A DNA stretch of 35,424 nucleotides from Acidobacteriota bacterium (lineage in GTDB: Bacteria; Acidobacteriota; Blastocatellia; Chloracidobacteriales; Chloracidobacteriaceae), in the NCBI GenBank assembly GCA_016208495.1, contig JACQXX010000001.1:1-35424 (forward strand), in the 5' to 3' direction. The position numbers and the translations under genes are program-made. Position 1 is the first letter of the stretch. Every line of letters begins with the position of its first letter. Below are positions 11,947 through 33,561 of the stretch, in pieces. Below the pieces are notes generated by a model. It saw only the letters and a list, made by a program, of their open reading frames with translations, was not told where the DNA came from and searched no databases.

Positions 11947-12054
11947 TAATATCATTTTGGAATGAAACGCTCGTATTCGTGAACAATTAAATAACTCAAA
12001 GAAATGGAGTTGGTGAACTACTGACTACTGACTACTGACTACTAACTACTAACT
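11947..12054 (+). repeat. Composite dispersed repeat, copy A, ending in an ACTACTG heptamer array
   Basis: A 31-bp core at 11947-11977 (begins TAATATCATTTTGGAATG, ends CGTATT), a 35-bp linker, then GTGAACTACTGACTACTG and further heptamers to about 12054. A second copy lies reversed at 33377-33472: the cores match at 28 of 31 positions, the linkers align with few gaps, and both end in GTGAACTACTGACTAC. It occupies most of the gap before the small gene at 12099. Confidence 0.75.
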
Positions 12055-12098
12055 GGTTTATCATTCTTCATTCTCAATTCTTCATTCAAAGGGGTGTT

Positions 12099-23023: not shown

Positions 23024-23160
23024 CAGTCAGTAGTCAGTAGTCAGTAGTCAGTAGTCAGTAGTCAGTGGTCAGTGGTCAGTAGTCAGTAGTCAGTGGTCAG
23101 TAGTCAGTGGTCAGTGGTCAGTAGTCAGTAGTCAGTGGTCAGTAGTCAGTAGTCAGTAGT
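23024..23160 (+). repeat. CAGTAGT/CAGTGGT heptamer array (about 19-20 units)
   Basis: A nearly perfect 7-bp array, the longest of this family in the window. It has no unique spacers, so it is not CRISPR. It lies directly upstream of the YjbR-like gene. The same family is at 12017-12054, 23768-23812, 23919-23955 and 33377-33402. Confidence 0.95.
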
Positions 23161-23741: not shown

Positions 23742-23767
23742 AGGAATAAAGTTCGGAGATTCTGATG

Positions 23768-23955
23768 AGTCAGTAGTTGATAAGTCAGTAGTCAGTAGTC
23801 AGTAGTCAGTAGATAAAACCCGGATCGTTGAATCCGTGGAATTCTTGAAAAGAATTGTTCCTAACTGACTCAAATAGAATCAAATTCACTTGATACAAGT
23901 CCTCAAATCCCAACACTCGACTACTGACTACTGACTACTGACTACTGACTACTGA
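23768..23955. repeat. Inverted pair of CAGTAGT arrays between gpsA and smpB
   Basis: AGTCAGT units at 23768-23812 face ACTACTG units at 23919-23955, about 106 bp apart. The arm beside the gpsA stop (7 bp away) is purine-rich on the gpsA sense strand, and the arm towards smpB is pyrimidine-rich. The spacer has no gene and no other structure that I can see. Confidence 0.9.
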
Positions 23956-23961
23956 CTAAAA

Positions 23962-24990
23962 TCAAAACTCACGTTTCAGTGGCCGGCCCAGAATATCAGC
24001 CAGGGCGTCAGTTGCCTTGCGGTTTTCATAGAGCGCCTGATAGACGCCACGGGTAATCGGCATATCTACATTGTTCAGTTTTGAGAGTTCATAGACCGCT
24101 TTGGCGGTTTTGACCCCTTCGGCCACGGAATTCATTTCACCCAGAACATCGCTCAATGCTCGTCCCCGGCCAAGCTCAAACCCCACGTGGCGATTGCGTG
24201 AAAGACCGCCGGTGCAGGTGAGGAACAAATCGCCCACGCCAGCCAGTCCAGAGAGCGTTTCAACCCGCCCGCCTTGAGCAATGGCCAGCCGGGTAATCTC
24301 AGCCAGTCCGCGGGTAATCACGGCCACCAGCGTGTTGTGTCCAAATCCCATGCCGGTGACGGCTCCGGCGGCAATTGCAATCACGTTTTTGACGGCGGCG
24401 CCGATTTCCACACCAACCATATCGAGATTGGAGTATAGCCGGAAATTTGGGTTGCTGAGTTCAGCCTGGATATATTCGCTCCAGCGTTGAGTGGTCGAAG
24501 CCGCGACCACTGCGGTTGGATCGCCTTTAGCCACTTCCTGGGCAAAGCTGGGACCAGACAGAGTCACGATACGCGGTTCAAAATCTTCACTCAACACATC
24601 GGAAATTACCTGTGACATCCGCTTGAGTGTGTCGCCCTCAATGCCTTTTGTGCCGTTGACAAACACCATTTGGGGTTTCAGAAATGGCCGCATTCTTTCG
24701 TAGGTGGACCGGGTAACGTGTGATGGAACTACGGTCAACACAATGTTTGCCCCATCGAGTGCCTCTGCCAGATCCGACGTTGGTTTTAGATTGTCCGGGA
24801 AGGTAAATCCAGGCAAATAAGTGGCATTCATTCGGTCCTGGGTCATTTGCTCGGCGTGTTCAGCCCGATGAGACCAGAGTCGAACGTCCCGCACGGGTCT
24901 TCCTGTCGGGGCATATCGAGCGGTGCTGAGTGCCAGAGCCGTTCCAAAACTGCCAGCGCCAATGACGGCAATGTGTTCTGCAGATTTCAT
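23962..24990 (-). CDS. gpsA: Glycerol-3-phosphate dehydrogenase (NAD(P)+)
   Basis: A 342-residue cytoplasmic enzyme reducing dihydroxyacetone phosphate to sn-glycerol-3-phosphate for phospholipid synthesis. The dinucleotide-binding loop GAGSFGTALA is at residues 11-20. LSGPSFAQEVAKGDPTAVV and the catalytic Lys201 in GVEIGAAVKNVIAIAAG are present. The substrate-binding segment GLAGVGDLFLTCTG..SRNRHVG is complete. Length is usual. The ATG directly precedes the normal start of the fold, so it is secure, yet no Shine-Dalgarno site exists: an octamer array stops only 4 bp upstream. plsY, whose product uses glycerol-3-phosphate, is the next gene upstream on the same strand, 212 bp away across the array pair. 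Confidence 0.97.
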   Translation of the reverse strand: MKSAEHIAVIGAGSFGTALALSTARYAPTGRPVRDVRLWSHRAEHAEQMTQDRMNATYLPGFTFPDNLKPTSDLAEALDGANIVLTVVPSHVTRSTYERMRPFLKPQMVFVNGTKGIEGDTLKRMSQVISDVLSEDFEPRIVTLSGPSFAQEVAKGDPTAVVAASTTQRWSEYIQAELSNPNFRLYSNLDMVGVEIGAAVKNVIAIAAGAVTGMGFGHNTLVAVITRGLAEITRLAIAQGGRVETLSGLAGVGDLFLTCTGGLSRNRHVGFELGRGRALSDVLGEMNSVAEGVKTAKAVYELSKLNNVDMPITRGVYQALYENRKATDALADILGRPLKREF

Positions 24991-29373: not shown

Positions 29374-30852
29374 ATGACCGATCATTTCCCAACTGTCATT
29401 ATTGGTGCCGGACCGGCGGGACTTACGGCGGCGTATGAACTTGTCCGTAACGGAATGCGGCCATTGGTTTTAGAACAAGGCACGCAGGTAGGCGGTATTG
29501 CCCGGACCGAAGTCTATAAAGGATATCGGTTTGATATCGGCGGCCATCGGTTTTACACCAAGGTCAAAGAGGTCGAAGATTTGTGGCGCGAGATGATGGG
29601 TGATGACTTTATCAAAGTGCCCCGACTGTCGCGGATTTACTACAAGGGCCGGTTTTATCAATACCCACTCAGTTTTCTGAACACGCTGACCAATCTTGGG
29701 TTGACCGAGAGCTTTCTGGTGTTGATGAGTTACTGCAAAGCCCGGATTGTTCCGCACCGGGATGAACAGACCTTTGAGGAATGGGTGACCAATCGGTTTG
29801 GTTCGCGGCTTTATCGCACGTTCTTTCAAGCCTACACGGAAAAAGTCTGGGGTATTCCCTGTAATAAAATCCAGGCAGAGTGGGCAGCCCAACGGATTCA
29901 AAATCTGTCGCTGGTCAAAGCCGTGGCCAACGCGCTTTTTGGTTCAAATGGTGTGAAGTCGCTCATCAATGAGTTTGACTATCCACGACTCGGACCCGGG
30001 CAGATGTGGGAGCGATTCCAGCAGGCGGTGGAAGATCGCGGCGGCGCCGTTCATCTCAACACGACGATTGTGCGCCTCAATTATGAAGGGAATCGGGTGA
30101 CCAGTGTGATTGCGCGGCGCGATGGTCAGGAATTTGAAATTGCCGCTCCCCACTTTATTTCCAGCATGCCGATCAACAAGCTGGTGCTCCATATGAATCC
30201 TCAACCGCCGGAAGCGGTGGTAAAGGCAGCCCAAAGCTTGAGTTATCGAGCCTTTGTCCTGGTTGGCCTGATCGTCAGGCGTGAAAACCTGTTTCCGGAC
30301 AACTGGATTTACATTCATAGCCCGGAACTCAGTGTTGGTCGGATTCAAAATTTTGGGAACTGGAGCGCCGCCATGGTGCCCGAACCAGGGAAGAGCTGCC
30401 TGGGGCTCGAATATTTTTGCAATGCCGGCGACGATTTGTGGAAAACCCCGGATCAAGAACTGATTCGGTTGGCTGAGAAAGAATTGATCGAGCTGGGACT
30501 GGCGCGAGAAGGCGATGTTGAGGACGGCGTTGTGATTCGCCAGCCGAAAGCCTATCCGGTATATGACAGTGAATATCGCGGCCACCTGGAAGTCATCAAA
30601 TCATTTCTGGACCAGTTTACCAATCTGCAAACGGTTGGACGCAATGGCATGCATCGGTACAACAACCAGGATCATTCGATGTTGACCGGTATGCTGGCCG
30701 TGAAAAACATCATGGGTGAGAAGCACGATCTGTGGGACGTCAACACCGAACGATCCTACTATGAAGAATTTACCACCACCGATGCTCCCAAGCCCGCCAG
30801 TGCGCACCTGCACAGCACAGGAGTGATTCCTCAACTCCACGAGGCCGAATAG
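29374..30852 (+). CDS. NAD(P)/FAD-dependent oxidoreductase, UDP-galactopyranose-mutase/protoporphyrinogen-oxidase-like
   Basis: A 492-residue flavoprotein of the amine-oxidase/UGM-like group. The N-terminal TVIIGAGPAGLTAAYEL binds the FAD ADP moiety. GGIARTEVYKGYRFDIGGHRF is the typical second segment of this group. AYTEKVWGIPCNKIQAEWAAQ recalls UDP-galactopyranose mutase relatives rather than heme-pathway enzymes. The C-terminal NLQTVGRNGMHRYNNQDHSM is the second FAD-contact region. Relatives are often found beside family 2 glycosyltransferases in surface-polysaccharide loci, as here (58 bp after one). Sugar-nucleotide or lipid-carrier processing is inferred, not shown. After the stop comes a palindromic element, then a convergent gene. 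Confidence 0.88.
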   Translation: MTDHFPTVIIGAGPAGLTAAYELVRNGMRPLVLEQGTQVGGIARTEVYKGYRFDIGGHRFYTKVKEVEDLWREMMGDDFIKVPRLSRIYYKGRFYQYPLSFLNTLTNLGLTESFLVLMSYCKARIVPHRDEQTFEEWVTNRFGSRLYRTFFQAYTEKVWGIPCNKIQAEWAAQRIQNLSLVKAVANALFGSNGVKSLINEFDYPRLGPGQMWERFQQAVEDRGGAVHLNTTIVRLNYEGNRVTSVIARRDGQEFEIAAPHFISSMPINKLVLHMNPQPPEAVVKAAQSLSYRAFVLVGLIVRRENLFPDNWIYIHSPELSVGRIQNFGNWSAAMVPEPGKSCLGLEYFCNAGDDLWKTPDQELIRLAEKELIELGLAREGDVEDGVVIRQPKAYPVYDSEYRGHLEVIKSFLDQFTNLQTVGRNGMHRYNNQDHSMLTGMLAVKNIMGEKHDLWDVNTERSYYEEFTTTDAPKPASAHLHSTGVIPQLHEAE

Positions 30853-33316: not shown

Positions 33317-33337
33317 AAAGAGAGTGAAGAAACTATT

Positions 33338-33561
33338 TAGTGGTTAGTGGTTAGTGGTTAGTGGTTATACCAGTTTGTAGTCAGTAGTCAGTAGTCAGTA
33401 GTTCACTAAGTTCATTTTATTGAATAACTTGACTGTTTTCTAATACGACCGCTTCATTCCAAAATGGTATTAGTGGTTAGCTTTTGGTGCTGGGTGCTTA
33501 GTGCCTGGTTCTTCTTCGAAAGTATTGATTTCTAACCACTAACCACTAACCACTAACCACT
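33338..33561. repeat. Inverted pair of TGGTTAG heptamer arrays
   Basis: TTAGTGG units at 33338-33367 face CCACTAA units at 33533-33561. A single TTAGTGG unit lies near 33471-33479. The arm beside the stop of the 33571 gene (about 10 bp away) is purine-rich on that gene's sense strand; the other arm faces the TPR gene start. Confidence 0.9.
33377..33472 (-). repeat. Composite dispersed repeat, copy B
   Basis: The reverse complement of this stretch matches copy A (11947-12054): core 33442-33472, linker, then GTGAACTACTGACTAC and heptamers. It is nested inside the TGGTTAG inverted pair, which suggests that one inserted between or grew around the other. Confidence 0.75.

Follow-up and report, generated by a model that had tools for sequence, protein, structure and literature searches.

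The window, the whole 35,424-nucleotide stretch of acidobacterial DNA that we analysed, holds two copies of a short dispersed element that carries a heptamer array and no genes. Copy 1 lies on the plus strand at 11950..12058 (109 bp, delimited from its own sequence and from its alignment to other copies), and its array (12017..12054, plus strand; TRF and sequence) consists of three CTACTGA units followed by two CTACTAA units. Copy 2 lies on the minus strand at 33368..33469 and is complete, with 102 bp running from TACCA to TGGTA and 99% identity to the 102-bp query; its array (33377..33403, minus strand; TRF) has three CTACTGA units and a partial one. The two sites form a gap-free alignment of 101 columns with 83% identity, and E = 1.2e-23 was obtained when the own genome was searched. 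This alignment bears out the 31-bp core with 28 matches described in the first-pass annotation, and the equal-length linker and the junction GTGAACTACTGACTAC are likewise present in the sequence of both sites. The annotation had located the sites correctly but had drawn their boundaries too narrowly.

The surroundings of the two copies differ. Copy 2 is enclosed by a TTA target-site duplication (33365..33367 on its right-end side and 33470..33472 on its left-end side, given on the plus strand from the sequence) and adjoins a 4.4-unit TTAGTGG (AACCACT) array at 33337..33367 on the plus strand, delimited with TRF and the joined flanks. That array resumes in phase beyond the copy for about one and a half units (33470-33480), and when the flanks of 33368-33469 are joined with a single TTA they yield an in-phase array that matches ordinary AACCACT arrays elsewhere. 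Judged by these flanks, copy 2 is an insertion into the edge of an AACCACT/TTAGTGG array. Copy 1 is flanked by TAA and TAT and thus has no perfect duplication; its left end has changed to TATCA and its right end has decayed to TGGTT. With these altered ends and its two CTACTAA units, copy 1 is an older copy.

CTACTGA-type units also lie elsewhere in the window. A 19-unit CTACTGA/CCACTGA array at 23025-23160, with a YjbR-like gene on one side and a 196-aa ORF on the other, is tied neither to the core of the element nor to that of a second repeat, family D; one of its ends reads ACTGGTTTGA and may be what is left of a right end of the element. Family D occupies 23763..23962 (no strand assigned), between two convergent ORFs, and is made of a 106-bp core (23813-23918) flanked to left and right by inverted CTACTGA arrays. 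Apart from these repeats, positions 29374-30849 encode an amine-oxidase-like protein. Of the 80 relatives listed for it, the first 30 are cyanobacterial, with 59-68% identity, and the rest are scattered, which suggests gene transfer.

Structure, copies and flanks of the element

The full element measures 102 bp and comprises an inverted repeat, a 66-bp core, CTACTGA heptamers and the end CTACAAACTGGTA; with its target sites, a full copy reads TNA-TACCATTTTGGAATGAAGC...CTTAGTG-AACTACTGA(CTACTGA)n-CTACAAACTGGTA-TNA. Terminal inverted repeats were indeed found as the pair TACCATTTTGGA / TACCAGTTTGTA, which is short and imperfect (10 of 12 bases). At the two window sites the array belongs to a larger element, as the first-pass annotation had held; this element is bounded by inverted repeats and has the array inside it, and a free microsatellite is rejected there.

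The assembly is divided into 177 contigs with a total of 8,375,582 bases. A profile of the 66-bp core detected 73 copies in 1,632,118 bases (the window and 80 stretches), equivalent to ~375 copies per genome; this figure is an extrapolation, since the stretches were picked non-randomly from long contigs of known length. The 17-base left end TACCATTTTGGAATGAA, with up to 3 mismatches, occurs at 370 places in the genome compared with 13 for a reversed-pattern control, and a 121-bp query against the own genome returned at least 44 matches, 40 of 503 first-look candidates having been scored. The label of a two-copy element is thus accurate for the window alone and not for the genome, and a chance match between the window sites is ruled out by the left-end counts together with the alignment described above.

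A right end, defined for the 73-copy set as [TC]GGTAT, TGATAT or TGATAC, was recognised in 59 of the core copies, while 14 were without one. Of these 59, 34 copies are 102 bp long, six are 109 bp, five are 95 bp, three are 88 bp and 11 have other lengths. Since 49 of the 59 lengths fit 102+7k, the copies differ mostly by whole heptamers; the 88-bp copies retain one unit and part of another. Representatives of three subfamilies, A, B and C, align over their full length without gaps, and the 102-bp length is common to all three despite differences in core and units.

Identical 3-bp flanks, mostly TNA, were found at 33 of the 59 copies; with the flanks mispaired and the end rule unchanged, 11.4 would be expected. 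We ascribe the lack of identity at the other 26 to decay, nesting and wrongly recognised right ends, an attribution made without proof. A sub-sample drawn from the first 44 copies gave 22 of 35 with identical flanks, all of them TTA, TAA, TGA or TCA, and a slightly different end rule gave 21 of 37 against 7.0 expected. A further set, selected from search hits, gave 42 of 59 against 14.0 expected, but five CCC-type copies were counted in it on both strands, at least two rows were mispaired and both ends were required for inclusion, so that it is no test of the ends; given these flaws, the statistic relied on is 33 of 59.

Four copies, each at a different place, share 100% identity along their 102 bp. 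Moreover, when flanks were joined after removal of one duplicated triplet, those of four copies, among the matches listed for 40 of 56 copies tested, matched unbroken sequence in the own genome, that is, paralogous empty sites. The joined flanks of the copy at L012 match L053 with 82% identity over 72 bp, and those of L021 and L052 identify these copies as insertions inside other copies of the element.

The element is short, occurs in high copy number, codes for no transposase and has terminal inverted repeats, a target-site duplication and paralogous empty sites, the features by which bacterial MITEs are recognised. The copy number in the sample, the ends, the 3-bp duplications, the 7-bp steps and the empty-site matches can be read from the letters themselves, and so can the identical copies at different sites and the differing unit types between copies. 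From these features we consider it highly probable that the element is a MITE, a 102-bp non-autonomous DNA transposon that disperses ready-made heptamer arrays as their carrier and not as their source.

The internal array and the placement of copies

At the fixed place behind the core, 56 of the 73 copies have at least one CTACTGA-type unit, which agrees with the expectation that the core would be followed by heptamers at a fixed distance; 13 have CCC-type heptamer sequence there and four have neither. Among the last four, the copy at L322:9736 has a CCACTAA array and in the remaining three the core passes into other sequence. Two or more CNNCTGA units are present in 26 of the first 44 copies. 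In all, the unit types among the copies are CTACTGA, CTCCTGA, CCCCTGA, CCCTGAA and CCACTAA, with CTCCTGA at three loci and CCCTGAA at two, by eye.

One rival reading gives the array a function within the element. Subterminal binding repeats for the transposase occur in other transposons, and the heptamers could be putative repeats of this kind, needed near the right end for movement. Heptamer sequence of one type or the other at the same place in 69 of 73 cores, the length common to the three subfamilies and the retention of a unit and part of another in the 88-bp copies are consistent with this idea. Nevertheless, the units differ between copies while the 3-bp duplication is still kept, the common length is equally explained by a founder effect, and the left end has no array. 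We regard a role of the heptamers in binding as possible but on the whole unlikely.

The copies lie predominantly between genes. In an 835-kb sample, 40 of 44 copies overlap ORFs by less than 30 bp, whereas 300 random placements gave a mean of 4.1 and a maximum of 11 (the ORFs were taken with a simple greedy rule and not with a gene finder). Insertion into existing arrays was also considered as a preference, suggested by copy 2 of the window and, by eye, by the copies at L010 and L046, which abut arrays too; it was rejected, as only 1 of 37 sample copies abuts another array.

Such an intergenic bias would also be expected if the host kept the element for a function between genes, as a terminator, a promoter or an RNA-stability signal, and segments of BrickBuilt, an element of Porphyromonas gingivalis, are described as having promoter activity in Escherichia coli in the part of the report consulted (PMC4596501). 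Selection against gene disruption gives the same bias, however, and among the 44 copies the orientation relative to tandem neighbouring genes is balanced, with 16 in the same and 14 in the opposite direction. Neither of the two window copies has a significant RNA fold (z -1.72 for one, a fold equalled in 10 of 200 shuffles, and z +0.76 for the other), and no Rfam family matched in the window at gathering scores; a structured RNA accordingly has no support. We therefore judge a host function to be improbable.

Origin of the arrays and means of movement

The first-pass annotation had proposed that the element may be the parent from which the CAGTAGT (CTACTGA) arrays spread. Within the genome this idea has some appeal, for about half of the CTACTGA runs are in or beside element copies: an automatic rule assigned the 49 runs of the 835-kb sample to positions directly behind the core (18), to family D (18), before a right end only (1) or to neither (12). 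Inspection of these 12 by eye indicated that three are pieces of one window array, one resembles an arm of family D and three resemble truncated copies of the element. On the other hand, as many runs belong to family D, whose core differs from that of the element while the arrays are common to both, and the other common heptamers lie outside the element (AACCCTG in 46 of 49 cases, AACCACT in 39 of 40, AAGAATG in 25 of 26 and AGGGATG in 22 of 22; these counts include weak profile hits such as the 23025-23160 array, and the count of 49 runs is stricter).

The relatives point the same way. The core had no match at E <= 0.001 in 57 related genomes, nor in 395 genomes drawn from the phylum, a set that overlaps the 57 and in which up to two candidates per genome were scored among the matches listed. 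As an exact pattern it had 0 matches in the contigs of named genomes, from which the own or near genomes may be left out. Array sequence, by comparison, matched in at least 17 of the 57 relatives, none of which has a core match, and the matches listed span query positions 53-99 of 102. We inspected 28 of these loci and found an array at 23 of them (two being the same place), often with drifting units and inverted partner arrays; by eye, no core precedes and no TGGTAT end follows any of them. Among the genomes searched, the element family is confined to this one. With arrays in relatives that have no core match, with family D carrying the same arrays and with unit types that vary from copy to copy, the element's parentage of the CAGTAGT arrays is not supported, and we give it very little credence. 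Recombination or gene conversion among arrays, in place of transposition, is a still less probable way for the copies to have spread: the units of an array look as if they had been homogenised (within-array identity 0.958, a value reached in 0 of 2000 shuffles, for which it was 0.771, in a test confounded by the common descent of the copies and not used as proof), but the exact ends, the 3-bp duplications, the empty sites and the scarcity of copies abutting arrays speak against it.

Several other repeats accompany these arrays. At the relatives' loci L098, L102 and L117, inverted pairs of CTACTGA arrays surround a short spacer and are able to form long hairpins. Family D has at least 41 matches in the own genome (40 of 91 candidates scored), with 85-100% core identity among the matches listed, and is absent from the 57 relatives searched. 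At its loci (L164-L193) the arrays are often long, and several of the copies are located at the ends of contigs. TACCA/TGGTA-like ends, as in the element, occur in a few family D copies (L166, L182 and L187). The genome is also rich in arrays of fixed heptamer units (AACCCTG, AACCACT, AAGAATG, AGGGATG and AATTATG, at L124-L163 and in the window) and has octamer (AAGGTGAC) and nonamer (AAAAACACG) arrays as well, with 437 array clusters in 835 kb. A small hairpin repeat, TACAAGTCCCCATAAATAGGGGATGG..., adjoins or interrupts element copies (at L088, at L153 near 14554 and at L294 near 9204), and a dispersed repeat, AAGTACCTTACCGAAAATTTCCAGACATTTTAACCACG or close variants, adjoins CACGAAAAA-like tandem units (L019, L053 and L057). 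In this genome, then, it may be more generally the case that dispersed repeats contain tandem units.

We searched for an autonomous partner with the same ends through four Pfam families and a scan for end pairs, and found none in the assembly of 177 contigs. There are two PF01609 genes in the genome, one of them at a contig end, which presumably are of the IS982 and ISAs1 types; neither has element-type ends on its visible sides, one of the genes being visible on one side only. No PF13586 or PF13340 genes were found in the genome, and PF13359 is represented by one fragment at a contig start that, by eye, is not followed by a TGGTA end on its one visible side. When the stretches and most of the fetched loci of the own genome, about a fifth of it, were scanned for a left and a right end that share their TNA and are separated by 0.5-3.5 kb, 0 candidates emerged.

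For the MITE that we favour, a DDE-type transposase, a type that we infer, would act in trans on the TACCAnTTTGnA ends, its gene perhaps lost or hidden at contig ends. The transposase would insert the element at TNA trinucleotides, with a stagger of 3 bp and for the most part in intergenic DNA. The array, just inside the right end, would move along with the element at every jump and would gain or lose whole units, probably by replication slippage, and heptamer arrays would thereby be dispersed through intergenic space. The element would thus carry a class of arrays that existed before it, having presumably trapped an older array, and would probably serve no host function.

A broader possibility, which we put forward only tentatively and hold to be rather unlikely, is that small transposons act as both nursery and distributors of intergenic arrays. 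After an element had taken up an array, the unit would be replaced as a block (CTACTGA by CTCCTGA, CCCCTGA, CCCTGAA or CCACTAA) and the new one spread by later jumps, and the free arrays of this genome and of its relatives would be the remains of many successive elements that are now unrecognisable.

Comparison with known systems

We know of no explanation for the origin of bacterial heptamer repeats, which are over-represented in many bacterial genomes (PMC4692102). Here one type of array lies physically within a mobile element with well-defined ends and duplications, whose numerous copies have diverged to varying degrees, and the gain, loss and replacement of units can for that reason be read copy by copy. 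Whether mobile elements spread bacterial heptamer arrays thus becomes testable in one genome, and the answer so far is that they carry such arrays but did not start them.

The STRR repeats of cyanobacteria are intergenic tandem heptamers. Arrays of other units in this genome lie outside the element, like such free-standing repeats, while the CTACTGA arrays are mostly in the element or in family D. The intergenic tandem heptamers of Xanthomonas and Nostoc are, in the portion of the study consulted, generally not tied to insertion sequences or transposable elements (PMC4692102), whereas 37 of the 49 CTACTGA runs of the 835-kb sample are within the two dispersed repeats.

As for the mobile part, the IS1031 subgroup of the IS5 family is described as preferring TNA and producing exclusively a 3-bp duplication (PMC12016507), and the element is like it in its 3-bp TNA duplication. 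The example given in the part of that source consulted has 17-bp ends beginning GAACC (PMC12016507), unlike the TACCA ends found here, and the searches of the genome yielded no IS5-type transposase that carries ends of this sort. On these two grounds we have not filed the element under IS5/IS1031 and use the general name MITE. Transposable elements linked to simple repeats have been described in eukaryotes, namely the microsatellite-associated MITEs of pineapple and DINE-1 of Drosophila (PMC8449440, PMC4067079), and are likened to the element through their descriptions, in the parts of these reports that were accessible, and not through their sequences. In the accessible part of a review of prokaryotic MITEs the word 'tandem' is absent and 'minisatellite' appears only in the references (PMC10969869), and among the papers listed from the literature searched, largely outside subscription journals, none reports this element or a heptamer-bearing bacterial MITE.

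Within that literature, and as far as the accessible part of its report goes, the closest published case is BrickBuilt, or MITEPgRS/464, of P. gingivalis (PMC4596501). It is intergenic and MITE-like, has short inverted-repeat ends and no transposase, and contains, enclosed by a leader and a tail, a tandem array, which its authors infer to be a trapped and propagated repeat (PMC4596501). Its units are of 23 nt and its 19 copies have the terminal repeat GAGACC..., with both repeats intact in 4 of 19 and duplications of irregular length (PMC4596501). Our element shares with BrickBuilt, as described there, the intergenic location, the MITE-like form, the internal tandem array and the lack of a transposase. 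In contrast, it has 7-nt units, ~375 copies by extrapolation, ends beginning TACCA... and a regular 3-bp duplication, and its units differ between copies and match the free arrays of the genome and, for CTACTGA, those of relatives. Membership of the BrickBuilt family was discarded, as the GAGACC... repeat and the 23-nt unit, the forms given in the part of the report consulted, are absent by inspection. The kind of element is therefore already known from one other bacterium, while the variant described here and its scale are, to our knowledge, new.
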